IMG/VR virus record: IMGVR_UViG_3300032297_000062
Span: 1-46,865 of that record
DNA from: a virus
DNA: 46,865 nt
Direction: 5' to 3' (one strand)
In this document: one piece after another, positions 4,281 through 42,709 of the stretch
Position numbering within the stretch: position 1 is the first letter of the stretch
How the letters are laid out: every line of letters starts with the position of its first letter
Program-made: the position numbers and the translations under genes
Notes under the pieces: model-generated
What the model saw: only the letters and a program-made list of their open reading frames with translations
What the model was told of the DNA's origin: nothing
The model's database searches: none

Positions 4281-5179
4281 GCCTCTTCTTCTTCAATATC
4301 TGGCTCTTCAGATTTAGGCATCCTAAAGTTTTTATACAGTTCGGCTTGTCGTGCAATTTCAGTAGCAAACTCTGCTTGGTATTGTCTAGTTGAACTAGGT
4401 GTTAATCCGTTTTCTTGCAACATATCGTCACGAATATTTTGCATTTTCTTTTCAATATTAAGAATTCGAGTAAAACTATTAGTAACTGCGGCAGTATAAT
4501 AGGCAAACGGGTTCTCAGATTTACTTTCGTCAAACTGTAAACCAATTTGACTTAACTGTAAAATTGCTTGCCCTTTCATTTCTTCTACATAAGTGTATCC
4601 GCGCCAGTTACTGCGTTGTGCATATCTTTCGCTTAGTTTAATATACATCTTACCTAAATTTTCAGTAATGCGTCCGTGATCTTTGCTGAAATGACCTGTA
4701 TCTAACGGACCTTTCCAATGACTCTTACCTACGCAAATTAGTTCATCTTCCTCGTTAAATTTCCAATGCTGGAACGGAGGAAAGTTTACTTTATCATGTC
4801 CGTCTGCGGTGCTCTTTACAGTCTTTTTACGACCCGGAGCAAGTGGAATATGATCAAATGTCATAATACGGATAACAACATCTGTTTTAGCAACTGTAGT
4901 GTAGTCTGGAGTACACTCCGCTAGTTTAATCTTCTTATCGCCTGATAGTCTAGCTGCTACAAATGCTTCTAAGCCTATTCTTTTTGCACGATTTCTTTTT
5001 GCTTCTGCAATAGTTCGAATATTGACTTTGTCTAAATTTGTTAAAATAACATCATGTTGACTGTATTCTGGCTTGGCAAAACTAGAAAAAGTATTTTTTG
5101 ATTTGTGGATTTCTGCTAGTAAGTCCTTGTTATTCAAGTACCGAACTTTGCGCCCGGTTGGGGAAATAGTTGTGGCCAT
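4277..5179 (-). CDS. 55: gp55-like late-transcription sigma factor (long form)
   Basis: The region around residues 180-260 matches the sigma region-2-like core of T4-type gp55: a helix with YTYVEEMKGQAILQL, then SENPFAYYTAAVTNSFTRIL and a basic helix. This core recruits host RNA polymerase to TATAAATA late promoters, helped in T4 by gp33 and the gp45 clamp. At 300 residues it is much longer than T4 gp55 (185). The extra N-terminal part (residues 1-170) is basic, and its C-terminal tail is acidic (EEPDIEEEEA). The start is secure: AAAGGAG lies just upstream. A sigma-70-like promoter precedes it, as expected for an early or middle gene that switches on late transcription. Its place next to genes 47 and 46 matches T4. 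Confidence 0.88.
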   Translation of the reverse strand: MATTISPTGRKVRYLNNKDLLAEIHKSKNTFSSFAKPEYSQHDVILTNLDKVNIRTIAEAKRNRAKRIGLEAFVAARLSGDKKIKLAECTPDYTTVAKTDVVIRIMTFDHIPLAPGRKKTVKSTADGHDKVNFPPFQHWKFNEEDELICVGKSHWKGPLDTGHFSKDHGRITENLGKMYIKLSERYAQRSNWRGYTYVEEMKGQAILQLSQIGLQFDESKSENPFAYYTAAVTNSFTRILNIEKKMQNIRDDMLQENGLTPSSTRQYQAEFATEIARQAELYKNFRMPKSEEPDIEEEEA

Positions 5180-5203
5180 CTGTCGTGGTCTCCTTTATTA
5201 AAC

Positions 5204-5233
5204 AGTGTAACATTTTTGTATTATCTGTGTCAA
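5204..5233 (-). promoter_or_regulatory. Sigma-70-like promoter for the gp55 gene
   Basis: On the minus strand, a perfect -35 TTGACA (plus-strand 5228-5233) is followed after 18 bases by TACACT (5204-5209), a 4/6 match to TATAAT that is preceded by TG. The strong ribosome site AAAGGAG (5190-5196) and the gp55 start follow. This fits transcription of the late sigma gene by unmodified host polymerase. Confidence 0.6.
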
Positions 5234-5261
5234 CCGATTAAATGAGCATATATTTACCCGG

Positions 5262-5268
5262 TTAAATA
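5262..5268 (+). promoter_or_regulatory. Late-type promoter element (TTAAATA) for the baseplate module
   Basis: TTAAATA lies 22 bases before the first structural start codon, in the divergent intergenic region. It matches seven of the eight positions of the T4 late consensus TATAAATA, apart from the second T. AAGGAA (5276-5281) follows as the ribosome site. It is the only candidate promoter at the head of the 33-kb plus-strand module. Confidence 0.5.
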
Positions 5269-5290
5269 AGCTATAAGGAATATTAAGAAC

Positions 5291-7198
5291 ATGCCATTCA
5301 TTATAGAAAACGGTGTAACACGAGAAGTAACTGACGAAGAGTATGATGCATTTCGCGCAGCTAATAATATGCCAATTCCTAAATTTGGAACGGCAACTGC
5401 GCCAACCTTGTCTAATGCTAGCGGACTAGATATTAATTTAGTTAATAGCCCAATGACTAAAGTCAATACTAATATATTCACAGTCAATACGGAGCTGCAA
5501 AGCGAAAAAAGATATTTAGATGACCAAAAATCTAAGCTAGCCGACAGACAATCAAGATTAGTTGAATATCAGGAGCAATTAGCAGCCGCTAAAGCTAGCG
5601 GAGCAAGTGAAAGTGAAATAGCCGCAATACAATCTAAAACTGATACACTAACCGCTAGGATTGAAAACACTCAAGCTAATATTGCTGATTCGGAAAGTCA
5701 TGTTTCTTATCTTAATAATAAAGTAGGCGCCTCCGATCTTCCACCAAGGGCTGAAGTGTTCACCAATGAACAAAATTTTGAGTATAATACACTTGCAGAA
5801 GATCAACAAGGAATAGTAGAAAATAATATTAATTCTGATCCAATAGAAACAAATCGATCTCTTACAGACGGAAATACAACAATTCAAACATTTGATGACG
5901 GTTCTACTTTGCAAACATTTGATGACGGTTCTACTCTTGCAACAGATACCGACGGTAATACAAGTTCAAGTCCTGCAACAGATGGGGATCCAGCATCAGA
6001 TCCGTCTGCTCGAAGAGAAGCTGCCAAAGCCGAGCTTGATGCCGCAAAGGCTGATTTAGTTGCTAAACAACAAGCATCCGCAGATGCACAAGAAAGAGTA
6101 GTTGATGCTCAATTAGCACTTGATGAAAAACAATCAGAGTTAGTAACAAAGCAAATTGCTCTGTCTGACGCAGAAACAGCAGTAGAAGAAAAACAAGAAG
6201 CATTAGATGCTTTAGAAAATGACCCAAATTCTACAATAGAAGAAATAGAAGCAGCACAAGCAGAACTAGATGCAGCCATTGACGAAGTACTAACTGCTAC
6301 CGCAGAAGAAAGTGATGCTCAGCAAGCAGTTGATGATGCTCAATCAGAGTTAGAAGCTGCTAACGAAGAAGCAGCTATTGCTGCATCAGATGTTGATGAC
6401 GCTCAGGGGGTAGTTGACGACGCCCAAGCAGCATATGACGAAACAGGATACTCGTCTGATCAAGAAGAAGATCCTACAAATCCAAATCCCGACTTTGGAA
6501 ATCCTGGAGATGGTAACGGTCCTGACCCTTCAAACGACGGTAGCGAAGTAGTATCTACTGGCCCTAATAGAGGAGGAGGTACTCCTGATAGAACTTCGGC
6601 AAGGTGGTCAGGTTCAAATGATATGAGAGTTATCTTACGGATTCCTGATTTATATTTAAAAAGTGCTTTAACAGAACCGTTAAGAAATAATGGCGGAATT
6701 TTATTCCCTTACACACCTACCTTAAGTTATGATACTAGTGCTTCTTATGGAAATGTAAACCCTACTCATTCTAACTACACACAATACTTTTTTAAAAATA
6801 GTGCTGTTGGTCAAATTAGCCTAAGTGGTAAGTTTACTGTACAAAACGAAACAGAGGCAAAAATTTGGCTGTCAGCGGTACACCTTGGCAGGATGTTAAC
6901 AAAGATGAGGTTTGGTTCTGATCAGTATGCAGGTTCAGCACCACCTGTATGCAGACTTGACGGATACGGCGATATGGTCATTTCAAACGCCCCTGTCTCA
7001 GTTACTAACTTTAAATTTGATTTACCTGAAGGAGTTGACTATATTTCAGTTAAAGGATCGCCGTTTGGTAATTCTATGGTACCTACAGTATCGACTATAT
7101 CCTTTACATTGATACCAATGTATAGTCGAGATGAAATTAGAAAATTCTCTGTCGACGGATTCCTAAAAGGATCACTAAGAGGAGCAGGATACTTATAA
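5291..7198 (+). CDS. gp48-like baseplate tail-tube cap protein with long coiled-coil insertion
   Basis: The C-terminal domain (residues about 437-635) looks like the tail-tube cap/initiator protein gp48 of T4-like phages. It has an ordered beta-rich fold with GSAPPVCRL, a segment near IKFDLPEGVDYISV, and a closing VPTVSTISFTLIPMYS, similar in arrangement to the end of T4 gp48. Ahead of it are two coiled-coil stretches (about 68-140 and 241-384; the second is acidic, Ala/Glu/Asp-rich) and a low-complexity linker with a tandem QTFDDGSTL repeat. At 635 residues it is far longer than T4 gp48 (about 364). The start has AAGGAA upstream, and the gene overlaps gp53 by one base (TAATG). The gp48 call rests on pattern and position; a gp54-like role is the alternative. 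Confidence 0.55.
   Translation: MPFIIENGVTREVTDEEYDAFRAANNMPIPKFGTATAPTLSNASGLDINLVNSPMTKVNTNIFTVNTELQSEKRYLDDQKSKLADRQSRLVEYQEQLAAAKASGASESEIAAIQSKTDTLTARIENTQANIADSESHVSYLNNKVGASDLPPRAEVFTNEQNFEYNTLAEDQQGIVENNINSDPIETNRSLTDGNTTIQTFDDGSTLQTFDDGSTLATDTDGNTSSSPATDGDPASDPSARREAAKAELDAAKADLVAKQQASADAQERVVDAQLALDEKQSELVTKQIALSDAETAVEEKQEALDALENDPNSTIEEIEAAQAELDAAIDEVLTATAEESDAQQAVDDAQSELEAANEEAAIAASDVDDAQGVVDDAQAAYDETGYSSDQEEDPTNPNPDFGNPGDGNGPDPSNDGSEVVSTGPNRGGGTPDRTSARWSGSNDMRVILRIPDLYLKSALTEPLRNNGGILFPYTPTLSYDTSASYGNVNPTHSNYTQYFFKNSAVGQISLSGKFTVQNETEAKIWLSAVHLGRMLTKMRFGSDQYAGSAPPVCRLDGYGDMVISNAPVSVTNFKFDLPEGVDYISVKGSPFGNSMVPTVSTISFTLIPMYSRDEIRKFSVDGFLKGSLRGAGYL
5885..5938 (+). repeat. Tandem 27-base repeat (two copies) coding QTFDDGSTL
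   Basis: Two back-to-back 27-base units (5885-5911 and 5912-5938) differ at two bases near their ends. They code two copies of the nonapeptide QTFDDGSTL in the linker between the coiled coils of the gp48-like protein. It looks like a recent in-frame duplication in a flexible linker. Confidence 0.9.
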
Positions 7199-10500: not shown

Positions 10501-11491
10501 ACCAGCAACTGAACCAAGAGCAGTAGCGCCAAGAGCAGACTTACCTGATCAACCTCTAAGTCCTGCAGAAGAAAAATCATTAATGGCCGCCTTAGCCGCT
10601 AGTGTTTTAAGTCCTTCTGTTAAGAGTAAATTACCTAAAGCAGTTGTAGGTAGTCCAGCAAGCCTTGATCCGGGTATTGCCAAGCTAAACAATCTAGTTG
10701 CTTCTGGTTATAAAAAACCAAAAACTCCAGCATGGAACTCTACTCCCGGAGGCGGAGGCACAGGCGGAGGAGGAGGTGTTGAAGGAGGCGGTGGAAATGT
10801 AGTAGTCGGACCGTTTGTTGCAGGACCAGGCGGCGGCGGAAAAGTTGCTAGAGATCCTTCTTGGGATTATGCAGCTCATTCATTCTTTGAAAATCAAGCA
10901 CACGATAGACAATATTTTGCTATTGAATATGCCGGAATGGATTATCTCCCTAAAACTGGTGTAGCAGCACTGCCTAATGAAAATGCTAGACAACTAATGC
11001 GTGACTATGCAGTAAATGTATTAGGATGGCAATCTGATGCAGCTATTCCTACAGGCCCTGACGGAGAAGTAACCTTTTTAGATCCTAACTATAAACCAGC
11101 AAGAAGTTTACAAGAATATATGCTAACAAATGCAACACAAAACGGCTGGCTAGACAGCAATGGTCAAAGTACCCTACCTCCAGATTTTCAACAACAATAC
11201 GATGCTGCTCAACTAGCATCACTTAACCCACACATTCAAGCACAGTTAGAAAGGATTAACGCCGGACAACAACAAATAGTAAATCCTAATATATCGTCGG
11301 CAGCTGATATAGCGGCTGCATCTGCAGCCGCTATTGACTATGTTTCTGGCTACCCTATAGCTAGTGATCCAAACTTAATTGGCGGTCCAATACAACAGTT
11401 TACACAAACTGGTCCTGCTAGTTCGTCTTCTGGAGCAACAGGACCAGCAGAGCCAGAACCGATATATGACAATAGTTGGGGAGGTGCATAA
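7502..11491 (+). CDS. Large hub-like virion structural protein with helical repeats
   Basis: This is a 1329-residue protein. Residues about 90-460 are beta-rich (FDLFIDNVELDTIIAPN, then KFEIYEPFSINGFIEAL) and resemble large baseplate-hub or VrlC-like proteins encoded just before gp5 in marine T4-like phages. I infer a gp27-like hub role. Residues about 690-1000 are Ala/Asn/Ser-rich and helical, with two copies of a roughly 32-residue repeat near 819 and 898 (ending ALANASV and ALRNASV). A Gly-rich linker (about 1082-1116) leads to a separate C-terminal domain (about 1117-1329) beginning DPSWDYAAHSFF. It ends in TAATG with gp5. Hub assignment is by position and fold impression; no catalytic site is seen. 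Confidence 0.6.
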   Translation: MAAGDTANILNGYRSITYNFTLAAVTPANLKNPESYRNKKLPFVIARSAGKGVNALKSSAVIPTQSSSSEQAEDDTAKKKAEVDAFNKESPGAFDLFIDNVELDTIIAPNEQTGAALGTKVKFEIYEPFSINGFIEALHVAARAAGWPGYINASFLLKIEFWGYADSDSGPSATPQKIPADKYVIIKLTGAEIEVTEQGTRYRCTGIPVNETAYSNANKLTAQRQMTGNTVQKVIKDLFDGLNEGEADKAENATGKKRDRDRYTVFFPKEPDAGEALKLDENIISKIGLAKINEVLKENTVYKFPPLKDKETKPNASYNPSENSIQFAAGSDILDIITAVIRDSHYMKSVLENLDKEAKSGDGMIDYFQVTVNTIPLKVDSSTNKQLYEFQYIITPYKVHFSKLPDQQFNRFDPARLKAFVKRSYDYLYGGKNIDIINFKLNFNNLFFQAANPNMGNKPTSEKVNAAAPSGGVEVTRSPNAAAEASSQDTEASPSVVIPEASSQAGRASPGRTDPYYQISYNAHQAILESVNMISGDLELLGDPFFLCTSGMSNYLAKTKDSATTADGEANFTQGPVIVKLNFRNPIDIDSDPNSPTYGLLKFKDLAPFSGLYQVLKCHSTFRDGVFKQNIKLLRYQGQIDAGSNEKEKFSEAFNEKPDSDNSITTDTARPDIQKYGAKANDINLLNLINKGLPTNGLPGQLLNIAGTSIAGVSGALSQVNGIVSQGVNLLNQVAGPGGAINIGSALPAINALSAGLRANTAALANISNVTGGLSAVANKFTVGGATENLNNPFSGQLTSLASKLTSEASNIGVNPGVLSAERTTAITRDAIERGLDVNKALANASVYTGAPVNPESLTALANNLDITKVVGASDSGFIGPAADKIDKLFSTDPTGLTANQKSAVIADAMSKGIPVDQALRNASVFGVNLPGVSEINATSAMAKLGFSSAQLSGVSNLDSKVFNQIEEITKSIPKNVNLAAVKEQGIILGGLTADTLQNLPATEPRAVAPRADLPDQPLSPAEEKSLMAALAASVLSPSVKSKLPKAVVGSPASLDPGIAKLNNLVASGYKKPKTPAWNSTPGGGGTGGGGGVEGGGGNVVVGPFVAGPGGGGKVARDPSWDYAAHSFFENQAHDRQYFAIEYAGMDYLPKTGVAALPNENARQLMRDYAVNVLGWQSDAAIPTGPDGEVTFLDPNYKPARSLQEYMLTNATQNGWLDSNGQSTLPPDFQQQYDAAQLASLNPHIQAQLERINAGQQQIVNPNISSAADIAAASAAAIDYVSGYPIASDPNLIGGPIQQFTQTGPASSSSGATGPAEPEPIYDNSWGGA

Positions 11492-13722
11492 TGCCAGATT
11501 TATCCAGACAAGCCAAGGGCATATACGGAAAAAGTAATACAAAATTACCATCTCCCGGGCCATGGCTAGGGATTGTTACTAATCACCTTGACCCTACATA
11601 TATGGGTGCTTTAGAAGTTAGTCTAATACAAGCTGCCCAAGGCACAACGGATCTACAAAGTCAAACTTTTGTTGTTAACTATGTGTCTCCATTTGCAGGA
11701 ACTACCTCAATTGAGTTCGAAGGCACTAACTCTGCAAAATTTCAAGACTCCCAACAAAGCTACGGATTTTGGGCGGTGCCTCCAGATATTGGTGCAACTG
11801 TTATGGTTATCTTTATCGACGGAGATCCTAATTCCGGATTCTGGTTTGGTTGCGTACCTGATAGATTTCAAAATCATATGATACCAGGCATTGCTGCTAG
11901 TAAGAATGTAGCAATAGATCCTTCCCAGGAAAGGAAGTACGGCACCCGTTACTTGCCTGTCGGCGAATTCAATAAATCCACGAGAAAAGATACTAACGGT
12001 ACAGGCGGACAAAGTATACGATTAGTAAACGAATTTAACAAACCTGTACACCCATTTGCTGATAGATTATTGGCTCAGGGCTTGTTACTAGATAAAGTTC
12101 GGGGTGTTACAAGCTCTGGCGCACGACGAGAAGTTCCTAGTAGCGTATTTGGTATATCTACTCCTGGACCTTTAGATAATGGTCCTAATGGAAAAAAGAG
12201 GCAAGTGGGATACACTAATGATAAAACTGGTCCTATACCTGTAACTAGATTAGGCGGTTCTTCTTTTGTAATGGACGACGGTGACAAAGAAGGCCAAAAC
12301 GAGCTTGTTAGGATTCGCACAAGAACAGGCCATCAGATTTTAATGCATAATAGTAGTGACTTAATTTACATAGGAAACAGTAAAGGTACTGCCTGGATTG
12401 AATTAACTAGCAACGGAAAAATTGATATATATGCAGAAGACAGTGTTAGTATTCATACAGAAAATGATTTTAACTTTAAAGCAGGTAGAGATATTAATTT
12501 AGAAGCTGGTAGAGATATGAACTTTAAAGTAAACGGGTCTTACCAAATGGATGTCACTGGTGACTATACTTTACTTGTACAACAGTCTGGAATGATAACT
12601 TTTTCTGAATATTACGACCATAGTGTTGGAAAAGATCTCAAATTAACAGTTGGCGAAGACGGCCACATTGCTGCCGGCGGCAAGATGTATACTACTTCAA
12701 TAGGCGCTATGCACATTCGTACTGGTAATGCAATGCATCAAACTTCTGCAGGAACTTTTAATGTTCTTTCGGGTGACAAATATATTGAAACTGCTACAGA
12801 AATACATATGAACGGACCAGCAGCAACATCTGCTACAGCGGCAGCGGCAGCTGAAATTCCAGAAGCATTACCTTTATTCTTATTGCCTAATCGAGCTAAA
12901 GATGCAGGCTGGGAAAACGGACAGTTCTACAAAGCAGCAGACATAGAATCAATTATGAAACGGGTTCCAACTCACGAACCCTGGGACCACCACGAAAGTT
13001 TAAATCCTGGACAGTTTACTCCTTCTCAGACTGATATAGGTAAGGCTGTACCTACTAAGACAGGTTCTAAAGATCCTAATACTCCACCGACTCCAGGCAC
13101 TACACAGGATCCACCACCTAATCTTAATAGGGGAGATACACCATCTGATTGGACACAAGATGTTGAGTTCATTAAAAAAGTTAAATCAGTTGCTGCCTCG
13201 CTAGGATGTTCACATATTGACTTATTATGCTGCATGGCCTTTGAAACTGGAAGAACATTTAATCCTGCTCTACGAAACAGTATTGGCGCTACTGGATTAA
13301 TACAGTTTATTAGACCTACTGCAATTGCGTTAGGAACAACAACTGATGCCCTTGCTGCTATGAGTAGAACAGAACAAATGGATTGGGTATTAAAGTACTT
13401 TAAAGCTGGACCGGTATCAAAGATTGCAGCCCCCTCGCTTGAAGACCTATACATGCAGATTTTATGGCCTAGGGCAGTTGGTAAACCACTAGATTATATT
13501 TTATTCACTGCAGGCGAAAAAGCGTATGCACAAAATCCCTTAGATAAAGATAAGAAAGGATATGTTACTAAAGCCGATGCAGCTTCAAAAGTAAGAGATC
13601 AATTAAATTATGTTAGAACACAATTGTTAAAAGTTCCAGATTCTGGAGGAGGTGTAACTGACAGTGGCGGTAACCCAATTACAGACGGTAGTGGTAATCC
13701 AGTTAGATACGGCGGCGGGTAA
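11491..13722 (+). CDS. 5: gp5-like baseplate spike/hub with C-terminal transglycosylase-like domain
   Basis: I start at ATG 11491, which overlaps the previous stop as TAATG; a TTG at 11476 would only extend into the upstream gene. The protein has 743 residues. Residues about 20-150 form a gp5/VgrG-like OB-fold domain (PGPWLGIVTNHLDP; PPDIGATVMVIFIDGDPNSG). Residues about 311-430 are a spike beta-helix of short repeats (AGRDINLEAGRDMNFKV). Residues about 558-680 look like a soluble lytic transglycosylase: MAFETGRTFNPA with probable catalytic E585, then GATGLIQFIRPTA. T4 gp5 has a lysozyme domain between OB-fold and helix; here a cell-wall enzyme sits at the C-terminus after a Pro-rich linker. 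Role: puncture and local peptidoglycan cutting. Confidence 0.87.
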   Translation: MPDLSRQAKGIYGKSNTKLPSPGPWLGIVTNHLDPTYMGALEVSLIQAAQGTTDLQSQTFVVNYVSPFAGTTSIEFEGTNSAKFQDSQQSYGFWAVPPDIGATVMVIFIDGDPNSGFWFGCVPDRFQNHMIPGIAASKNVAIDPSQERKYGTRYLPVGEFNKSTRKDTNGTGGQSIRLVNEFNKPVHPFADRLLAQGLLLDKVRGVTSSGARREVPSSVFGISTPGPLDNGPNGKKRQVGYTNDKTGPIPVTRLGGSSFVMDDGDKEGQNELVRIRTRTGHQILMHNSSDLIYIGNSKGTAWIELTSNGKIDIYAEDSVSIHTENDFNFKAGRDINLEAGRDMNFKVNGSYQMDVTGDYTLLVQQSGMITFSEYYDHSVGKDLKLTVGEDGHIAAGGKMYTTSIGAMHIRTGNAMHQTSAGTFNVLSGDKYIETATEIHMNGPAATSATAAAAAEIPEALPLFLLPNRAKDAGWENGQFYKAADIESIMKRVPTHEPWDHHESLNPGQFTPSQTDIGKAVPTKTGSKDPNTPPTPGTTQDPPPNLNRGDTPSDWTQDVEFIKKVKSVAASLGCSHIDLLCCMAFETGRTFNPALRNSIGATGLIQFIRPTAIALGTTTDALAAMSRTEQMDWVLKYFKAGPVSKIAAPSLEDLYMQILWPRAVGKPLDYILFTAGEKAYAQNPLDKDKKGYVTKADAASKVRDQLNYVRTQLLKVPDSGGGVTDSGGNPITDGSGNPVRYGGG

Positions 13723-13730
13723 ATAGTATT

Positions 13731-14165
13731 ATGGCCTATAAAAATATCGTTGTTAAATCAAATAATATCAAAGCACAGACTACAGTAAAGAGTAGCCAGT
13801 TTTACAAAGGATTCAGCACGGTTGACGAATCGTCTTTTACTACTAAGATATACGACTATGAATTAGTTAAGCAAGATCTGTTAAATCAATTTAATACACG
13901 AAAAGGCGAACGAGTAATGAATCCAACTTTTGGTACTATTATTTGGGATTTGCTGTACGAACCGCTAACGCCATCGATAAAACAACAAATTGCTGACGAT
14001 ATTGATAAGATTTTGTCTAGAGAACCTAGGGTAATTCCTACCCAAGTTAACATCATAGAACAAGATTACGGCTTTTATTTAGAGCTAACACTAACCTATT
14101 CTGGAACTGATGTCAGTGACCAGATAAGACTGGCATTTGATCGTGAAGTTGGCCTAATGGGCTAA
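13731..14165 (+). CDS. 25: gp25-like baseplate wedge subunit
   Basis: At 144 residues it is close to T4 gp25 (132). It belongs to the GPW/gp25 family, recognisable by RKGERVMNPTFGTIIWDLLYEP (residues about 57-78), then the acidic and aliphatic helix QQIADDIDKIL and a beta strand EPRVIPTQVNI. gp25 is part of the wedge core with gp6, gp7 and gp53, and helps trigger sheath contraction. The gene follows gp5 with an 8-base gap, and gp6 follows after 54 bases. Gene order 5-25-6 matches cyanophage-type T4-like structural modules. Confidence 0.93.
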   Translation: MAYKNIVVKSNNIKAQTTVKSSQFYKGFSTVDESSFTTKIYDYELVKQDLLNQFNTRKGERVMNPTFGTIIWDLLYEPLTPSIKQQIADDIDKILSREPRVIPTQVNIIEQDYGFYLELTLTYSGTDVSDQIRLAFDREVGLMG

Positions 14166-14188
14166 TAATATACCAGGTTTATGTTAGC

Positions 14189-14196
14189 TATAAATA
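14189..14196 (+). promoter_or_regulatory. Perfect late promoter TATAAATA for gp6
   Basis: TATAAATA at 14189-14196 is identical to the T4 late consensus read by gp55-containing polymerase. It lies 24 bases before the gp6 ATG, in the only gap of meaningful size in the baseplate cluster. Transcription is expected to begin about 14202, from spacing known in T4. It drives gp6, the giant gp7-position gene and probably the fibre genes. Confidence 0.75.
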
Positions 14197-14221
14197 TGCT
14201 ATAATTGGGCAATTAGCATAT
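14194..14221 (+). promoter_or_regulatory. Hairpin covering the gp6 start codon
   Basis: The arms ATATGCTA-T-AATT (14194-14206) and AATTAGCATAT (14211-14221) pair as 11 base pairs with one bulged T and loop GGGC. The right arm contains the first two bases of the gp6 ATG (14220-14222). The left arm starts inside the late promoter. Transcripts reading through from upstream would carry both arms and could hide the start; transcripts from the late promoter (start about 14202) would lose most of the left arm. T4 genes such as e and soc are known to be regulated this way. Confidence 0.6.
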
Positions 14222-17200
14222 GATTCCATCGACAAATAATAAACTTCTTGTTGCAGAAGACTGGAAAAAGATATACCAGTCTTTTAATAATTCAGATTTT
14301 AAATCGTACGACTTTGAAACACTTCGTCGTACTATGATCACATACCTTCGTGAAAATTACCCCGAAGATTTTAACGACTACATTGATTCTAGCGAGTATG
14401 TTGCGTTAATCGACCTTATTGCCTACCTGGGACAAAATCTAAGTTTCCGTGTCGATTTAAATGCCCGAGAAAATTTTCTAGAAACAGCACAACGCCGAGA
14501 AAGTATTTTAAGACTTGCCCAGCTAATAAATTACAATCCAAAAAGAAATACTCCTGCTAACGGATTTTTAAAAATTACCAGCATTAGCACCACAGAGAAT
14601 ATTACAGACGCTAATGGTGTTAATCTATCAAACACTCCTATTGCTTGGAATGACCCAAGCAATAATAATTGGTATCAACAATTTTTAACTGTAATTAACA
14701 ATGCCATGCCAGCTGATGTTACTTTTGGAAAACCATACGATAGAAAATCTATCAGCGGTATTCCAACTGAACAATATAAAATTAATTCAGCTATAACAGA
14801 TGTACCGTTGTTTACATTTTCAAAATCCGTCAGCGGCATAGCTATGGAATTTGAAATTGTTAGCAGTACATTTGCTGAATCGAGTTATATAAAAGAATCT
14901 ACTCCTTTGCCAGGTTCTAATTTTAGTTTTATATTTAGAAATGATTCTAGAGGAAGTGCTAGTGCAAATACTGGATTTTTTGTACATTTCCGTCAAGGTA
15001 CTTTAGGAGTTAGTTCGTTTAGTGTAGATACTCCAGTTGCTAACGAAGTAGTAGGCATCGACATTGCAAATATCAATGACACTGATGTATGGTTATGGCA
15101 ACTTGACGGTAATGGAAATTATGGCACAGAGTGGACTAAAGTTTCAAACATTACTGGAAACAACATCATTTATAACAGTTTAGATATTTCTAAAAGGAAC
15201 ATCTATGCAGTAACATCTCGAGATCAAGATCAAATTGACTTAGCATTTGCCGACGGCGCCTTTGGAAACCTACCTAAAGGTAATTTTAAATTATTCTATA
15301 GACAAAGTAACGGTTTACAGTATTCCATTAAACCTGATCAGATGAATGGTATTCAAATTCAGATACCTTATTTTAATAAGAGTGGTCAACGAAACACTAT
15401 CACTTTTACTTTAAGTTTGCAATATACAGTAAACAATTCTTCTGCTCCTGAGACTAATGACACTATTAAATTAAAAGCTCCTCAAGCATATTATACACAA
15501 AACCGTATGATTACTGCTGAAGACTATAATATTGCTCCGTTAACGGCTGGTACCGATATTCTTAAAGTTAAAAGCGTTAATAGAATTAGCAGCGGCATTA
15601 GTAAGTATTTTGAGCTTAGTGATGTAAGCGGAAAGTATTCTACAACAAATATATACGGTAATGACGGTGCTCTGTACAAAGATGTAAAACAATCAACAAT
15701 TGAGTTTAGTTTCAATAATAGGAACGACATATATTCTGTGATTCAAAATCAAATAATTCCAATTGTTGAATCTGATATGCTGAGAGATTTTTACTTTGAT
15801 AACTATCCAAGACCAGATTTGCAATCTCAAAGTGCATTGTGGCAACAATTAACTAGCACTACAAATCAATCTACTGGTTATTTTAAAGATAGAATTTTAG
15901 GAACTCCTTTGCAAACAGGATTTTTTAGTGGTAATAATCTATCGTATGTTGACACAGGTGCGTTAGTAAAATATCTTCCTGGCGATGGATATGTGTTTGC
16001 TAAGAACGGAAAACGAATTCCTGTAGCTAATGCTGACTCTACTACTTCAAAATATATGTGGAGTAAGATTGCATTAGTTATAGGTGACGGCGCAAATGCC
16101 GGAGCCGGCGCTTTAGCAAACGGAACCGGTCCTATTGTAACTACAGGATATGTTCCAACTGATGCAGTAGCTAACTCTGTTATTCCTAATTTTAGTACAG
16201 TTTTTAGTTATTCTTTACAAAACGAAATTATTAACTTGTGCCTAGCTACAAGAAACTTTGGTATTGCTTTTTCTGCAGACACTCGTTCTTGGTATATTAT
16301 TAACGATACTAATCTAAACACAGCAGATCCTTTTACACTAGTGTACCAAAAAGATGTATCTAATTCTAATAGAGATACAGGCTGGATGTTTGCATTTTTA
16401 TGGAACGGTACTGGGTATGAAGTAGTGTATAGGACTTCTGATTACATATTTGAAAGTAAAGCTGAGACTGCGTTCTTCTATGATGGAACTGATAAGAATT
16501 ATGATTTTGTTACAAATACAGTAGTTAAAGATAAAATTTCTGTTCTAGGAATAAACACAGTTTCTACATCTTCTTTTTATAGTTTAGGAAAAGATTATCA
16601 CTGGCAAGTCAATGGAAATATTGTCGAAGCAGATGGATACATCGAACCTAAAAAAGTTAAAGTATCATTTTTTGATGCACAAGATGACGGACAAATTGAT
16701 AATCCTGACAGTTTTGAAGAAATTGTAATTTCTAATTCTACTAGTTCATATACAACTTATAAAGATAAGTTTGTATATTTTAAAACTAGTGCAGATGAAT
16801 TAACTTATAGTCTAGTCGATTCATCTAATTTCTTAGCATATCCAATTCCTGATAATATTCCTTCAGAGATGAAAATAGAAGGCCAACTTTATTATTTTTA
16901 TGATTACGGTCTTGACTATGTTGCTAGTTATTCTACAGCTACTTCAACGCCTTTTACATTAGAGCCTAGTTACTATGCTAAACCTGGAAGGCATTCTCTT
17001 AAATTCCATTATGTACATAATAGCGGAGATAGTAAACGATTAGATCCTAGCAAAACTAATTTAATTGATGTTTTTATTTTATCAGCATCGTATGATACTT
17101 CTTTTAGAGCGTGGTTATCTTCTGGAACTGGCACAGCTCCTCTACCTCCTACTAGTTCTAGTCTTGAAACTAATTATAGTTCAGCATTGGAGCCAATAAA

Positions 17201-17639
17201 AGCGATTAGCGATTCAATCGTTTATCAACCTGCAATCTATAAAGTTTTATTTGGAACAAATGCTAATAAAAATTTACAAGCAACATTTAAAGCAGTTAGA
17301 AATTCAGCAAGGTCTATATCTGATAACGATATTAAATCTAGGATTTTAGCAGCAATCAATGAATTCTTTAGTTTAGATAATTGGGACTTCGGACAATCAT
17401 TTTATTTTAGTGAACTGTCTACTTATGTTATGAACATAATGTCTCCTGATATAACAAACTTTATTTTAGTACCTAAAGCAGATGTACCTTTTGGTAGCTT
17501 ATATGAAATTGCATGCCAACAAAATGAAATCTTTGTAAGCGGTGTTACCGCATCTGATATTGAAGTAATTGATACTATTACTTCTAGTCAAATTAAAACA
17601 ACTTCAACAATTATTAACAGTTCAGTAGGAGCAGCCTAA
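14220..17639 (+). CDS. 6: gp6-like baseplate wedge subunit (Baseplate J family)
   Basis: This 1139-residue protein has the conserved gp6 N-terminus: FETLRRTMITYLRENYPEDFNDY, then SSEYVALIDLIAYLGQNLSFR and LDxxARENFLETAQRRESI (residues about 35-95). It continues with the long beta-rich Baseplate J-type body and a C-terminal domain that includes DIKSRILAAINEFF and NWDFGQSFYFSEL (about 1040-1065). gp6 dimers form the inner ring of the baseplate and hold the wedges together with gp53 and gp25. T4 gp6 is 660 residues, so this protein carries about 480 extra residues, mainly in the middle. It ends in TAATG with the giant gene. Late promoter and hairpin precede it. No good Shine-Dalgarno sequence is visible. 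Confidence 0.9.
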   Translation: MIPSTNNKLLVAEDWKKIYQSFNNSDFKSYDFETLRRTMITYLRENYPEDFNDYIDSSEYVALIDLIAYLGQNLSFRVDLNARENFLETAQRRESILRLAQLINYNPKRNTPANGFLKITSISTTENITDANGVNLSNTPIAWNDPSNNNWYQQFLTVINNAMPADVTFGKPYDRKSISGIPTEQYKINSAITDVPLFTFSKSVSGIAMEFEIVSSTFAESSYIKESTPLPGSNFSFIFRNDSRGSASANTGFFVHFRQGTLGVSSFSVDTPVANEVVGIDIANINDTDVWLWQLDGNGNYGTEWTKVSNITGNNIIYNSLDISKRNIYAVTSRDQDQIDLAFADGAFGNLPKGNFKLFYRQSNGLQYSIKPDQMNGIQIQIPYFNKSGQRNTITFTLSLQYTVNNSSAPETNDTIKLKAPQAYYTQNRMITAEDYNIAPLTAGTDILKVKSVNRISSGISKYFELSDVSGKYSTTNIYGNDGALYKDVKQSTIEFSFNNRNDIYSVIQNQIIPIVESDMLRDFYFDNYPRPDLQSQSALWQQLTSTTNQSTGYFKDRILGTPLQTGFFSGNNLSYVDTGALVKYLPGDGYVFAKNGKRIPVANADSTTSKYMWSKIALVIGDGANAGAGALANGTGPIVTTGYVPTDAVANSVIPNFSTVFSYSLQNEIINLCLATRNFGIAFSADTRSWYIINDTNLNTADPFTLVYQKDVSNSNRDTGWMFAFLWNGTGYEVVYRTSDYIFESKAETAFFYDGTDKNYDFVTNTVVKDKISVLGINTVSTSSFYSLGKDYHWQVNGNIVEADGYIEPKKVKVSFFDAQDDGQIDNPDSFEEIVISNSTSSYTTYKDKFVYFKTSADELTYSLVDSSNFLAYPIPDNIPSEMKIEGQLYYFYDYGLDYVASYSTATSTPFTLEPSYYAKPGRHSLKFHYVHNSGDSKRLDPSKTNLIDVFILSASYDTSFRAWLSSGTGTAPLPPTSSSLETNYSSALEPIKAISDSIVYQPAIYKVLFGTNANKNLQATFKAVRNSARSISDNDIKSRILAAINEFFSLDNWDFGQSFYFSELSTYVMNIMSPDITNFILVPKADVPFGSLYEIACQQNEIFVSGVTASDIEVIDTITSSQIKTTSTIINSSVGAA

Positions 17640-20600
17640 TGGCAAATAGCATTTCTCAAGTAGTCGATATTAGTAGTCCAGGAACTACTAGAAGGTCAGT
17701 TGATTTATTACCTGCTCTTTTTAGAACTGATAAAAATGCTAAATTTTTAGCAGGAACATTAGATCAGTTTATTCAACCTGCCCAATTAGAAAGACTTAAT
17801 GGATGGGTCGGTAGTAGAGCTACCCCTACTTATAATCCTGCCAAAGACAACTATATTACCTCTAATTCTAAATTAAGAAATGCATATCAGGTAGCACCTG
17901 CATTGGTAGTTAAAGATAAAAATTTAAGTATTTCAAAAGTTTTAAATTATGACGATTTAATTAATCAATTAGAATTTCAAGGAGCGTCTGTTAAAAAATT
18001 AGACAGACTTGTTGATCCTCAATTGTATTCTTACAATCCTCATATTGACTGGGATAAATTTGTTAATTTTGATCAATACTACTGGATGCCTAACGGACCT
18101 GATGTAGTATCAGTAGCCGGTGAAAATAATTTGTCAGTTAGTACCTATACTGTTAGCGATAGCGAAGACGGTCAATATTTTATTTTTACTCCTGACGGAT
18201 TAACACAAAATCCCTTACTAACACTATATAGAGGTGTTACCTATATTTTTAATATTCAATCTTCTAAGAAATTTTGGTTTAAGAATGTTCGAATTGCAGG
18301 AACTGAAGGACAATATCGAGGTGTTGATACTAACGGAATTAGTAATGGTAAGATAATTTTTAAAGTAGATGAGAACACTCCTGCTAATTTATTTTATGTA
18401 GCAGAAGACTCTGTTATCAATGGCGGCGAGATTCTAATTAAATCATTAGTTGACGATAGTAAAATAGATGTTGATGCAAATATTATAGGCAAAAAAACTT
18501 ACACTTCTGGTAACGGAGTTGTATTCACTAATGGTCTACGAATTACTTTTGCTGGTAATGTTTTTCCAGATACTTATGCTGACAAAGAATTTTTTGTTGA
18601 AGGTGTTGGAGACAAAATTAAACTAATTGATGTTGCAACTTTAGAAACTCCTGAAAAATTTGTTAGTGTATTAGATGAAAATTTTGATGGAACTGGGTTT
18701 GATGATTACGGATTTGATACATTTAAAAATACTCCATTAATACCTGAGTACATTACTATTAATCGTGCCAGTATTGATCGCAATCCGTGGTCAAGATACA
18801 ATAGATGGTTTCATGAAGATGTAATTATTGCATCGGCAGGATATAATAATAGACCTCCTGTACTACCTGTTGAAAACAGAGGTAAACGCCCTATTGTTGA
18901 ATTTGAACCTAACCTTCAGCTGTTTAACTTTGGATCTGCTGCCATTACCAATGTTCAACACATTGATACAATTACCACAGATGCATTTTCTGATATTGAA
19001 GGCCAATTAGGATATTATGTTAATGGTATAGAAATAACACAGGGCGATAGGATTGTGTTTACATCAGATACTGATCCGTATGTAAACTCTAAAATTTTTG
19101 TTGTAAATTTTGTAAGAATCGACGGAATTTTAAAAATTGCATTAGAAGAAGCAAGTGATTCGCCACCGTTTATTGGAGCTTCTATTATTGTTACTAAAGG
19201 TGTTGATAATGCTGGAACCAATTGGTGGTTTAACGGTACAACCTGGCAATTTGGGCAACAGAAAGAAGTATATAATCAAGCTCCGTTATTTGACATATTC
19301 GATAAAGACGAACATAGCTACGGTGATAGTACATATTATCAAAGTTATTTCTTAGGTTCAAAAGTATTTGGATATTCTATAGGAACAGGAAGTAATGATT
19401 CTATACTTGGATTTCCTTTAAAATATAAAAATATTGCAGACCAAGCATTTTATTTGTTTGAGAATTATTTTGTAACAGATTTAAGTAGGGTTGTAGACTT
19501 TGATACAACTTATTATTTGCCAATAAGCAAAGGGTTTATTAGAAAAAATATTTCAGCTGAAACTAATTTCTACATTAATGTTTGGGAAGAATCTCCTCAT
19601 TATACAGTTCCTATTTTACAATATGAAGTAATTCAGAATAACACTTCACAGGTTGAAATTACATCTATTAATAACCCAGCTTATCAAGATGTTAAAATAG
19701 AAGTATTTCTAAATAATAACAAAGTATTTTTAGAAACTGATTATACTTTATATGCACAAGGTTCGAGATATTTTGTATCTTTTATAAACCAATTAAAAGC
19801 ACAAGACACTGTTTTGATTAAAGTTTATGGAAATGTTGTTCCGAGCGAAACCGGATATTATGATATTTCTATTGGCTGGTCTAACAATCCACTTAACGGA
19901 CCAATTGAAGAATTTACATTATCTGAATTAACAGACCATGCTAAGTCTATGGCAGATAGCCATCCAGATTTTGTAGGAAAATTTTTAGGAAAAAATAATT
20001 CTAGAGACATTGTTAATCTTTCTAGATACGGTAGTAGGCTAGTTAGAAATAAAAACCCGCTATCAATGGCTGGATATTTTATTGCTGATAAAGAACACAA
20101 TATTATTAATGCAGTTAATCAAGTATGTTTACAATATAATCAATTTAAATTACGATTCTTAGAACAAGTTACAAATTTAAAAGGCAATTATGATACTATA
20201 ACTTCAGTTGACTTAGCACTACACAATATGAACATTGCTAGAGATGCTTCATCTGCGTATGCGTATGCAGATATGTTACCTTACGGTAACGATGTAACTT
20301 CTAGACAAGTTACAGTAACTGATTCTAGAAATGTAACATACGGTATTAACAGTGTATATCAATTAGTACAAACTGATCCTAGATCAGTACTAGTGTATCA
20401 CACTCCTGTATCAACCGGGATACGAACTCAATTACTTGTTGAACGAGATTATTATTTTGATCCTTATGATTCGACAGTAATTATTAAAGCTCCTTTGACT
20501 AAAGGAGATGTCCTTCTTATAAATGATTATGCTAGTACAGATGGATCCTTTGTTCCTCCGACTCCAACAAAGCTAGGATTGTATCCAAAATTTTATCCAG

Positions 20601-23600
20601 AAATTTTTGTAGATAACACTTATGCAACTCCACAAAAAGTTATCCAAGGACATGACGGAAGTATTATAGTTGCATTTGATGACTACCGAGACGATATTAT
20701 ATTAGAACTAGAACGAAGAATTTATAATAATATTAAAGTTAATTATAATTCCAATCTCTTAGATTTTAACGACATTGTTCCTGGTGCATTTAGAAAGACT
20801 GAGTATGGTCGTCAGGAAATAACTAATTTAATTAGAGCAGAGTTTTTAAGATGGAATAATTTTTATGGATTTGATTACGAAAATAATAATCTATACAATG
20901 ACAATCCTAAAACCTGGAATTTTAAATCTGGTAGCTCGCTAACTAGTCCTGCCCCATTATTAGGAAATCAGAGAGCAATATACAAATATTTTTACGACAC
21001 TGATCGTCCACATACCCATCCTTGGGAAATGTTAGGATTTAGTATAGAGCCTTCATGGTGGAAGTCCATCTATGGTCCTGCACCGTATACATCTGGTAAC
21101 CTTATATTGTGGGACGATCTTGAAGCAGGTCTAATCAGAGACCCTAACGGTAGAAAAATTGATCCTAAGTATGCAAGACCTGGTTTGCTTGATATAATTC
21201 CTGTAGATAGCAACGGCAACCTACTAGACCCAGCTAAATCACAAATTGTTCATAATTTAAATTATGAAGATATTTCTAACAATTGGGAGTTCGGCGATTG
21301 GGGCCCAGTTGAAACAGCATGGAGAAGAAGCAGTTATTGGCCGTTTGTTGCTCAAATTATGGCAATACTTGCTAAACCTGCTACATACTCTAGCTTATTG
21401 TTTGATACAAGTAGAGTCAGTCTTAACAATGCTGGTCAAGTAGTATATTCTCCTACATACGATTTTGTAACTCCGTCTGATTTGTTATTATATACTGATA
21501 CTATCTCTGGTAACATTGTACGATCTGCAGGCTATTCTGTAATGTTAATTGAAACAGGCAACCAAAAAAGTAGAACTTATGTAGCTGATATTAAATCAGA
21601 ACTATCAGAATTGTCGATGAATCTAACTCATAAAGTTGGCGGGTTTGTCAGCAAAGATAAGTTAAGTATTGTAATTGATTCAGTTAATCCTGCAACTGCA
21701 AATCCAGGAACAGCTTTATCTAATGAAGATTATAACATATTCTTAGATCAAAGTACTCCTGTCTCATCGTTAGCTATATCAGGTATTATAGTGCAACGAA
21801 CGCTTGCTGGATATGTATTAAGAGGGTATGACAAATCTTATCCATTCTTTACCTGCCTTCTTCCTGAAGAATCTGCAAAGAACCCAGATTTTACTGTTGG
21901 CGGCAAAAGTGAACAATTTGTTACATGGGAGCCTAGTTCTTCTCATGATACAGGTTTAAGTACTGCTGAACTAACTACTGCGGTATCTTCTAATGACGGC
22001 TATAAATTTTATAGAGTTGGACAAGTTGTAAAATATAATGAACTATATTACAGAGTAGTTGTTAGTCATACCAGCGGCAGCTTTTTTAACTTTAAATATT
22101 TTAAACAACTTCCAGGTATTCCAAGTGTAGGCGGCATTACAGTATCTAAACCTACAAAATTTGCAACTACCGAAACTCTAATTCCTTATGGTAGAACTTA
22201 TAAAACTGAACAAGAAGTTTTTAATATTATAATGGGCTACGGTGCCTGGTTAGAAAGCCAAGGGGCTATATTCGACGAGTTCCAGCCAGATCTTGAAGAA
22301 GTGTTAAATTGGTTATATACCGGAAAAGAATTTTTATATTGGGCAAGTCAAGGTTGGGGACAGAATACTGTTATTACTCTAAGTCCGTTTGCAAATAGCG
22401 TAAAATATAAAAATAATAACGGAGCTATTGATAATTTAGGTAGCGCATTTTACGAATACAGTGTTACAAAAGCTGACGGCACTTCTTTAAATCAACGATT
22501 TTTAAATGTTAATCGTCAAGACGGTGTTATTACAGTTACTACTACTAATACAACTGACGGCATTTTCTTTATTAGATTTAATTGTGTACAAAAAGAACAC
22601 ACTCTTGTTTTTAACAATTATAGTTTGTTTAACGATACAATATACGATGTTGGAACAGGTTACAGGCAGCGTCGCCTTCAACTAAATGGTTTTAGGACTG
22701 CTAACTGGAACGGAGATTTGTTCAGTCCGGGATTTTTGTATGACGAAGCTAACATAACTGAATGGGCAAAGAATAGTATCTATCAAGCAGGTGCTGTTGT
22801 TAGATTTGCTGGAAATTACTATTCCGCAATTAAAACTATTAATTCTATTGACACATTTGATTACAATGAATGGAGATTATTAGGAGAAAAACCTATATCT
22901 CAATTGCTACCTAATTTTGATTACAAAATTAATCAATTCGAAGATTTCTATAGTCTTGACATTGATAACTTTGATTCTAGTCAACAAAAACTAGCACAAC
23001 ATCTAGTTGGGTATACTCCTCGACCATATCTTGATAACATCTTTAATAATCCTATAAGTCAATATAAATTTTATCAAGGATTTATTAAAGAAAAGGGAAC
23101 TAGAAATACAATTTCTAAATTAGGAAAGGCTAGCTCTCAAAATATTGGTAGCTATGTTGACTATTTTGAAGAGTGGGCATTTAGAATAGGAGATTACGGA
23201 TCATATACTACTGACAAGTCTATAGAAATCACTTTAGACGAAAGCAAGTTTAAAGAAAATCCACAAATTGTAAAATTTGTAGAATCTGCTCCTATTAATC
23301 CTAACGAAACTTATATATTCCAAACTGAAAATGATGTTGTCATTAAGCCTACTACTTATGACAACAAACCTTTTGCAACTACATCAAGTATCTACGCAGA
23401 CAATATTTTTCAATTACCTGTTGCTGGATATGTTAGGATAGATGATGTTACAGGAACTGCATTTAACAAATCTAGCCTACTAGATATTTCAGGAAGTTTA
23501 AATGACGGAGATGTAGTCTGGATTGCTTATAAAGACAATGGAGATTGGGATGTTTATAGATATACTAGTATAACTACTAGAGTTGTTGATGCATCTATTC

Positions 23601-26600
23601 GTGTACCTGGAAATTATGTAACACTTACAACTGATTACTATCATGGATTATCTGTAGGAGATTTAATTAGTGTACAGCAATTTGATACTCAACTTGACGG
23701 AGTTCATCAGATACTAGCTGTTCCTGAGTTAGATCAATTAGTTATATCAAGTACATTAACTACTTTAAGCACACCTTTTTCTCCAGCAGTTGGTATGATG
23801 TTTAAGTTTGTAAGTTCTAGATTTAGTAATCCTGATGCAATATCATATCTTGACAGTATTAATCGTTTACAATTTGGAGAAAAAGTATGGGTCGATGATG
23901 ACGGCACAGGCCGCTGGGCAGTATATGAAAAAACAGATGCTTATACTTCTGATAGCTATACACCTGGCACATCTGGCATTACATTTAATCAACGATTTTC
24001 TTTTAAGGTTGTTACAAATAATGCCGGTACTAAAGTAGTCTCTAGCGCCCCAGAATATTATAATAGTTCAGCAGGAATTTATGGAAGAGTATATGCCTAT
24101 TATAAATCTAGTACAGGCACTAACAATCTTGTTAATTCTGCCGGAATACTTTTAAATATTTCTAGTAACCAAACTTACTATAACTCAACTGATAATCCTA
24201 GTTTTGGTGCTGCGTTGGCATTAGACGATACAAATAATTTTATTGCAATAGGCGCTCCAACAACTAGCTATGTTAAATTTACAACTTCAACTGACAAGTT
24301 AAACACAGTGTCAGTGTCTGGTACAACATCTACATATACCCAACAAGGTATGGTAAAAATGTATCAGCTAAACATTGCTAGGTCAGAAACATTACAGGAA
24401 TTTGCTGTATCTAGCCCTCAACCACAAACAGGCGCATTATTTGGATCTGAGATATTTATTGCTGAATCTTCTACAGGTACTAAGCTGTTAATGGTAGCCA
24501 GTCCAGGCCAAGATAACGAATCTGGAGCTGTTCACTATTCAAGATATACAGTAAGTACCAGCAATGTTGTAACTATTTCTACTAGTTCTCAAGTTCGATT
24601 ACCATATACAGTAACAACCGATACATGGGGAGATAAATTTGGTACTAGCATAGCCGGTTCATCTAATGGTACATCAATTGCTGTAGCAGCACCTGGATAT
24701 GCAAACGGTGAAGGTGCAGTATATGTATATGCCGCTACTAATACAGGTACTTTTGTAAACACACAACTTATTACAATTTCTTCGCCTGGCATGGCTGGAA
24801 ATATAGTAAAAGCTGACGGATTTGCCTCTAAAGTGTTGATGGATTCGACAGGAAAGTATCTGTTTGTATCAGCACCTAAGAGCTCAGACAATCTATTCAA
24901 ATCAGGAAAAGTTTTTGTATTTTCTAAAAATGAATCTGGAACATATTTGTTAAATCAAATTATTGTAAATCCTTATTCTAATAACGGATCTGACTTTGGA
25001 TCAACTATGAGTCTTACACCTGACGATAAATCGTTAGTGATAGCCAGCGTTGGATCTAATCATCGTCCATATGTAACATTTGACACATATACAAAACCAC
25101 TAAGTGGTGCAATACAATATGTATTAGATCCTGAGAGCAAAGAAAGAGAATCAGCTACTACATTTGATTCTGGTACAGTTAATTTCTTCACTACCGTAAA
25201 AAATTCTGGATCTGTCTTTACTTTCACAAGGCTTGTTGATAGATATTTTTATTCACAAGAGTTGTTTGACAATTCAATAGTTTCTAATCAAATTTATGGA
25301 CGAAGCATTGCTGCCTCTTCAAATTGTATATTTGTAGGAGCACCAGGCTTAACTACTGATATTGGTCAAACTGGCAATATGTTCCTGTTTGACTATTCTT
25401 TAGATACATGGAATAAGAAAAGGTACGAGGCTGACTTAGTTGATATTTCTAAAATTAAATCTATTAAACTAATTAACACTGAACAAGAATCTATTGTTAG
25501 CTATCTTCAGTTTATAGATCCTATCAAAGGAAAAATTCCAGGTACTGCTGATAGCGAATTAAAATACAAGACAGTATTTGATCCTGCTGTTTATAGCATA
25601 GGTTTGCCTGGAACTACTGTTGACTCTTCATCAAGCTGGATTGATGATCATGTTGGAGAGCTATGGTGGGATCTTGGCAGCGTGAAATATGTATGGTATG
25701 AACAAGGCGAATTAGATTTTAGAAAAAATAATTGGGCAACTGTTTTCCCGGGTTCTACCATTGATGTATACGAGTGGGTAGGTAGTAGATATTTGCCTAG
25801 CCAATGGAGTTCTATTGCTGGTACTAACGAGGGTCTTTCTCAAGGAATTAGCGGCCAACCTAAATTTCCTAACAATTCAGTTATGAGTGTTAAACAAGTA
25901 TGGGATCCGATTACAAATACAATGTCTAACATTTATTATTATTGGGTAAAGAATAAAATTACAATTCCTAGTACAGGTAATAGAAAACTGAGTAGTAACA
26001 GTGTAGCTAATTCTATTGCTAATCCTCGTGCCCAAGGTTTACCGTTTATTGCTCCTATTTCAGAAGATGCAATTATATTAACAAATATTAAACCTTATGT
26101 ATCGGGAGCTAATATCAATCTATCTATTGATATAGATGATATTGATAATACTATTAACAAACATACTGAATGGTTATTATTGCAAGAAGGAAATAAAGAT
26201 AGCGTACCTAATGCAATGCTAAAGAAGAAAGTTAAAGATAGTATTTTAGGCAGAGATGTATTAGGTAATATTATACCCGATCCATCATTACCTGATAGAT
26301 TAAAGTATGGTGTTAAGATTAGACCAAGACAGAGCATATTTAAAGATAGACTTGCAGCTTTACGAGTTTTAGTTGAATATGCTAACTATGTTTTAAAAGA
26401 TCAGAATATTGTTGATTCAACAAATTTAGATTTTTTTAATAAGAAAGAAGAATTTCCTGTTGTAAGCACTGGTTTGTACGATTATCAAGCTGAAGATGTA
26501 TTAACACGAGATACAACTATTCCTACTAGAAAATTAACTAGAGGTGTAATAACTGCATCTGTAGCTAACGGAAAAATTAATACTGTAGTAATCGAAAATC

Positions 26601-42391: not shown

Positions 42392-42674
42392 TGGTTAATT
42401 TCTCGCCAGTTGTTAATTTATAAACAGAAAAATCCTGGCAATTAAAGGTCTTGTTTAGCTTTTCTGCTAAGTTAATAGCATGTCCGGCATTTGAAAAACT
42501 AACCTTTTTATACTTTGGTCCGACATCTTGTGCAATAATGCTACTAAGTTTTAAGTTAACTGGCTTGTCTTTGTAAAAAACTGCCCAGATTGCTTCGGCT
42601 TCCAGTACTTGTTCTGTTTTGTAATTTTTTTTGTTAGTGATTTCTAATAATACGGTTGGCTTAGGCCTACTCAT
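42375..42674 (-). CDS. Conserved phage protein of unknown function
   Basis: I take ATG 42674 (MSRPKPTVLLEITNKKNYKT, 99 residues) with GGAG upstream; a TTG at 42686 would add only MERT. The protein has EQVLEAEAIWAVFYKDKPVNL, VGPKYKKVSFSNAGHAINLAEKLNK and FSVYKLTTGE segments. It is recalled as conserved among cyanophage and pelagiphage genomes, always hypothetical. It is basic and probably a small alpha/beta fold. It sits between a GTG-start gene and the 130-residue protein in a dense minus-strand cluster. Confidence 0.7.
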   Translation of the reverse strand: MSRPKPTVLLEITNKKNYKTEQVLEAEAIWAVFYKDKPVNLKLSSIIAQDVGPKYKKVSFSNAGHAINLAEKLNKTFNCQDFSVYKLTTGEKLTNEPKA

Positions 42675-42709
42675 GGTGCGCTCCAAATATACGCACTTAT
42701 TTATTTTAA

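Follow-up and report, generated by a model that had tools for sequence, protein, structure and literature searches.

A predicted hairpin at the gp6 start codon shares its left arm with a candidate late promoter in an uncultivated T4-like phage

Introduction

Does an RNA hairpin that reaches from a late promoter into the start codon of a baseplate gene control translation of that gene, and, if so, against which transcripts? The question is raised by the 54 nt between the end of gp25 and the start of gp6 in a 46,865-base virus record from an uncultivated T4-like phage. This whole stretch of DNA is referred to here as the window. In T4, inhibitory helices have been described at the starts of e, soc, 49 and I-TevI (PMC3014915; PMC2988022). 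The late promoters of e are located a short way upstream of its ribosome site, and the transcripts made from them are missing the 5' part of the helix (PMC3014915). I-TevI has a similar late-promoter arrangement (PMC2988022). A first-pass annotation of the window cited e, soc and 49 as precedents for a switch at gp6, and that mechanism is indeed documented for them (PMC3014915).

Results

We placed the candidate promoter, the hairpin and the surrounding genes on the window (Table 1). The gp6 stop codon and the ATG of the giant gene overlap at 17637-17641, an arrangement that makes translational coupling of the giant gene to gp6 plausible. Named phages are distant from this one. The best gp6 matches were ~33-35% identical (phages of Sinorhizobium, Agrobacterium and Salicola, and other large phages), and a search of a phage collection for nearly matching DNA with the window gave no match. 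Several of the IMG/VR contigs with relatives are longer than 300 kb. Between gp55 and the divergently oriented structural operon (5179-5291), relatives have a conserved TTTATTTAttggTTAAATA..TATA..AGGA element that is probably a variant late promoter.

Table 1. Positions of the genes, promoter boxes and hairpins in the window.
Feature	Position	Strand	Remarks
gp55, late sigma factor, 300 aa	4277-5179	-	PHROG 12791, E 2.2e-83
TTAAATA box before first gene of structural operon	5262-5268	+	kept in most relatives reaching that far
Baseplate hub/lysozyme	11476-13722		
Variant late box GTAAATA	13719-13725	+	5 nt before gp25 ATG; likely source of read-through RNA
gp25, baseplate wedge	13731-14165	+	Pfam GPW_gp25 above cut-off; PHROGs 261 and 43
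Candidate late promoter box TATAAATA	14189-14196	+	T4 late type, -13 to -6; NTAAATA in nearly all of ~260 gp6 relatives
gp6 hairpin, left arm	14194-14206	+	outer 8 pairs 14194-14201; inner AATT 14203-14206; bulge within 14200-14202
Predicted late transcript start	14202	+	last A of box + 6; from T4 numbering and box-to-ATG spacing
gp6 hairpin, loop GGGC	14207-14210	+	
gp6 hairpin, right arm	14211-14221	+	ends with two bases (AT) of the gp6 start codon
gp6, baseplate wedge subunit, 1139 aa	14220-17639	+	PHROG 10646, E 1.7e-288; tblastn to annotated baseplate wedge proteins
4417-aa virion protein	17639-30892	+	ATG overlaps gp6 stop codon (TAATG)
Second-hairpin gene, 99 aa	42375-42674	-	function unassigned
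Second start-site hairpin, GTGCGT/GCGCAC	42676-42696	-	-7.7 kcal/mol
Late promoter box ATAAATA of the 99-aa gene	42698-42704	-	predicted

We confirmed that the box and the hairpin exist largely as first described. The window has two exact copies of TATAAATA (8.9 are expected by chance), and the copy claimed at 14189-14196 is the only one of the two directly before a gene start. The hairpin (14194-14221) has the 11 pairs, the loop and the two paired bases of the ATG (14220-14221 of 14220-14222) that had been reported. It does not have the reported single bulged T: the left arm is 13 nt and the right arm 11, leaving a bulge of two bases. RNAfold retained the outer 8 pairs (14194-14201 with 14214-14221, ATATGCTA/TAGCATAT), closing a 12-nt loop at -7.5 kcal/mol (z -1.9; 8 of 200 shuffled sequences were equally good). 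In a 101-nt context the hairpin persisted in both the minimum-energy and the centroid structures; that region as a whole was not unusually stable (z -0.39). An anchored stem of at least 8 pairs arose on shuffling of the window sequence with P ~0.024, and the ATAT/ATAT outer pairs are partly supplied free by the promoter and the ATG. With 8 pairs, the stem seen in the window is a modest one and by itself only suggestive; the evidential weight comes from relatives. The gp6 leader is short and has little or no Shine-Dalgarno sequence.

The promoter box is nearly universal before gp6 in relatives, and the hairpin is found in a minority of them. Protein scans yielded 287 sequences carrying gp25 or gp6. 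A usable promoter box was present in 264 of them, and the distinct leaders numbered 124. The box before gp6 was ATAAATA in 123 of the 124; [ATC]TAAATA was absent at 23 loci, most of which carry GTAAATA. Stems of at least 8 pairs running from the promoter edge to the ATG were present in 19 of the 124 distinct leaders. When right halves were exchanged between leaders (arm swapping), the mean was 3.6 and the maximum 10, and none of 400 trials reached 19, a comparison that corrects only partly for shared ancestry. At other box-to-gene junctions of the same loci, where leaders are shorter (median 9 vs 20 nt), such stems occurred in 1 of 124, and at TTAAATA junctions, with a median leader of 18 nt, in none of 67. 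Two candidates, L017 and L159, were rejected as the same hairpin; each has local folds, none of them between promoter and ATG. In two large relatives, few of the ATAAATA sites surveyed had a start-site hairpin (those at gp6, at a second gene described below and at L486), indicating that the feature is selective and not general to late genes. The case at L486, in a 331-kb relative, is a third gene with a promoter-edge stem, which pairs with the AGGA region of that gene.

The leaders and boxes of relatives had other features. In the region corresponding to 14166-14196, most relatives that do not have the hairpin have an inverted pair that flanks the box, TATACC on its upstream side and GGTATA just after it. 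A Shine-Dalgarno-like motif was present in 41 of 44 late leaders of outgroup gp6 genes and in only 22 of 80 late leaders of the gp6 group whose proteins start MIP or MTIP. Opposite-strand ATAAATA boxes ~26-30 bp apart recur in related genomes (L487, L492, L465, L474), each box leading to the start of an ORF beyond the other box.

We found that the two arms covary, the kind of compensatory change that the first-pass annotation had proposed looking for in related phages. The commonest stem among relatives is GTTAT/ATAAC. Alternative paired stems include GTAATCC/GGATTAC (L103), GCTATC/GATAGC (L018 and L265) and GGGATC/GATCCC (L277), and in L257, L247 and L234 changes in the right arm give G-U wobble pairs. 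The GCTA/TAGC stem of the window is unlike the commonest stem on both sides. In an alignment of 21 hairpin leaders (A1), 92.5% of cells pair; A1 consists of hairpin-bearing leaders only, so it shows how pairing persists and not how frequent the hairpin is. The covariation score of A1 was 0.230. Shuffled versions gave 0.143, none of 500 reaching the score of A1, in a test that corrects only partly for shared ancestry; slid versions did not exceed 0.173. Inexact pairs in gp6 were G-U rather than A-C by only 7 to 4.

A gp6 tree with 124 rows shows the hairpin mostly in a few neighbouring clades. The window is among these and does not fall in any strongly supported small set. Called by folding energy, hairpin presence changed 8 times on the tree. 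The nearest sister clade (the L002-L017 group) has kept the promoter and is missing the hairpin, as are most gp6 relatives, and the hairpin is therefore dispensable. Loss of pairing without compensation in close relatives had been named as evidence against the proposed switch. The sister clade, with a gp25 identity of ~69%, shows such loss. The closest relative does not: its DNA is 91.4% identical across 6.2 kb and has no difference from the window at 14145-14344, the whole spacer and hairpin included. When viral contigs were scanned for the stem pattern of the window, only this known relative and unrelated short ORFs came up, and thus no further close relatives could be used.

The position of the hairpin relative to the expected transcript start indicates how the two kinds of RNA would differ. 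A T4 late box spans about -13 to -6 (PMC2988020), which would place the late start at ~14202. The outer left arm would occupy about -8 to -1 relative to it, and late RNA would keep none of that arm. In these phages the spacing between ATAAATA and the ATG has its peak at 4-5 nt (69 of 239 distinct starts, of which many belong to gp25); two large relatives and one close relative have this spacing at about a dozen sites. This spacing suggests that many late mRNAs of these phages may be leaderless, starting at the ATG. Spacing of 4-5 nt is common, occurring at 13719-13730, L453, L470, L505 and many other loci.

Folding the leader with and without the left arm, as had been suggested, gave the predicted difference. 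We took openness to be that predicted for the last six leader bases and the ATG. For the window's start region it came to 0.10 when read-through RNA was folded and to 0.58 for RNA begun at the predicted late start. The 22 hairpin leaders gave 0.24 and 0.66, compared with 0.66 and 0.73 for the 100 other leaders.

The transcripts that the hairpin would act on are probably late themselves. Same-strand genes and promoter-like boxes lie upstream of gp6. In 85 of the 92 distinct gp25 contexts, NTAAATA precedes the ATG by 4-7 nt, and the first gene of the operon has a conserved TTAAATA box in relatives, followed by an AGGA-like ribosome site. Because of these two boxes, read-through RNA into gp6 is probably late; from the gp25 box it would likely be leaderless for gp25. 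These late-type boxes of upstream virion genes speak against the proposal that the hairpin limits gp6 to late time. It is more likely that the hairpin uncouples the dosage and translation of gp6 from the gp25 message.

A second start-site hairpin lies before a gene whose 99-aa product matched nothing in PHROG or Pfam. It overlaps the last G of a GGAG and ends 1 nt before the ATG at 42674. Since a MAFFT alignment of these leaders places the arms poorly, we used arm swapping. Stems of at least 8 pairs were present in 36 of 42 distinct leaders of relatives, compared with 11.1 after swapping, and the mean stem energy was -9.8 compared with -4.8. Inexact pairs were 15 G-U and 2 A-C, an excess that favours sense-strand RNA over a DNA palindrome. 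Judged by its retention in most relatives and its strong covariation, this predicted hairpin is a better case than that of gp6. The genes upstream on the same strand include those for an exonuclease and a QueE-like protein, and the 99-aa gene may come closer than gp6 to the classic T4 situation of a late gene within an earlier transcription unit.

Discussion

Based on these results we infer a start site, an effect on translation and a purpose for the gp6 hairpin. The 3' edge of the gp6 late promoter would double as the 5' arm of an RNA hairpin. Transcripts entering from the gp25 late box or from the operon box near 5262 would carry both arms and fold, burying the gp6 start codon, and gp6 would be poorly translated from them. 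A transcript made by gp55-polymerase from ~14202 would be missing the outer left arm, and its gp6 start would be open. In this way gp6, and the giant gene that overlaps its stop, would be made mainly from the gp6 promoter, whatever the amount of upstream read-through. We consider it probable that the promoter edge serves as the hairpin arm, that the start is hidden on read-through RNA and open on RNA from the gene's own promoter, and that the purpose is uncoupling. The mechanism put forward in the first-pass annotation is supported (gp55 is encoded, the box is kept, the arms covary and predicted openness differs); its restriction of gp6 to late time is not.

More tentatively, promoter-encoded hairpins in these large uncultivated T4-like phages might distinguish one late transcript from another, and not late messages from early ones. 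Upstream late messages, often leaderless, would be silenced for the downstream gene, and each late promoter would control the translation of its own gene only.

One alternative is that the hairpin silences early read-through and keeps gp6 and the giant gene off early in infection. Such a role is documented for T4 e and I-TevI, and some early read-through into gp6 is possible, but the upstream virion genes have late-type boxes (gp25 in 85 of 92 contexts, and the first gene of the operon); we regard early silencing as unlikely. It is also unlikely that the window's stem is functionless and only results from the sequences of promoter and start codon, a reading under which the hairpin could still work in other clades. 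The single-sequence P of ~0.024, the absence of the hairpin from the sister clade and the partly built-in outer ATAT pairs would fit such an origin. However, 14145-14344 is identical in a relative that is 8.6% diverged, the window is among the hairpin-bearing clades, and GCTA/TAGC differs from the commonest stem on both sides.

The sequence is palindromic and overlaps the promoter, and it might instead act as DNA, either as the operator of a dimeric protein or as some other double-strand element; I-TevI, for example, uses an operator that overlaps its own late promoter to repress it (PMC2988022). Yet pairing holds while loop length and stem sequence vary, inexact pairs in the two genes together are 22 G-U to 6 A-C, as expected for sense-strand RNA, and in both genes the hairpin ends at or beside the ATG. 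A DNA site is quite improbable in light of this evidence. Finally, the late start is a predicted one, and a start upstream of 14194 would place the hairpin within the late RNA, where it might serve stability or control. T4 numbering, which sets the box at -13 to -6, and the many genes with an ATG 4-5 nt after the box, a spacing that fits a start at that distance, make this very improbable.

The preferred reading, a hairpin that uncouples gp6 from upstream messages, would carry a classic control device of T4 over to uncultivated phages, where it would serve a core baseplate gene as well as a small gene of unassigned function. In the open-access literature, we found T4 reviews and unrelated papers and no description of such a hairpin for these phages. 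The comparative support, from covariation and strand-specific wobble pairs, spans phages far more divergent than the close T4 relatives of the T4 review. The locus is also a testable case of a single stretch of DNA serving both promoter recognition and RNA folding, where the upstream transcripts are probably late too.

The gp6 hairpin has the anatomy of those of T4 e, soc and 49: a late-type box directly upstream and a start codon in a predicted helix. As in e, the late promoter is within the DNA encoding the 5' strand of the hairpin, and long transcripts would form the helix over the start, which late ones would be unable to do (PMC3014915). Unlike e, gene 6 does not encode lysozyme, its leader has little or no Shine-Dalgarno sequence, and the phages with the hairpin are distant from named ones (gp6 ~33-35% identical). 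Also unlike e, timing is a poor explanation for the gp6 hairpin, because the upstream virion genes have late-type boxes. Sequestration of a start or ribosome-binding site is likewise seen in T4 I-TevI, Aeh1 mobE, T4 soc and gene 49, and for I-TevI it is relieved by initiation at an adjacent late promoter, as we propose for gp6. Those are homing-endonuclease or other T4 genes, and the likeness to gp6 is architectural. T4 gene 25 is another baseplate gene with a structured start. Its stem improves initiation where the spacing between Shine-Dalgarno sequence and AUG is too long (PMC3014915), whereas the gp6 hairpin covers the AUG. In its arrangement, the proposed gp6 switch, with its predicted effects on transcript and translation, matches the known mechanism of T4 lysozyme.
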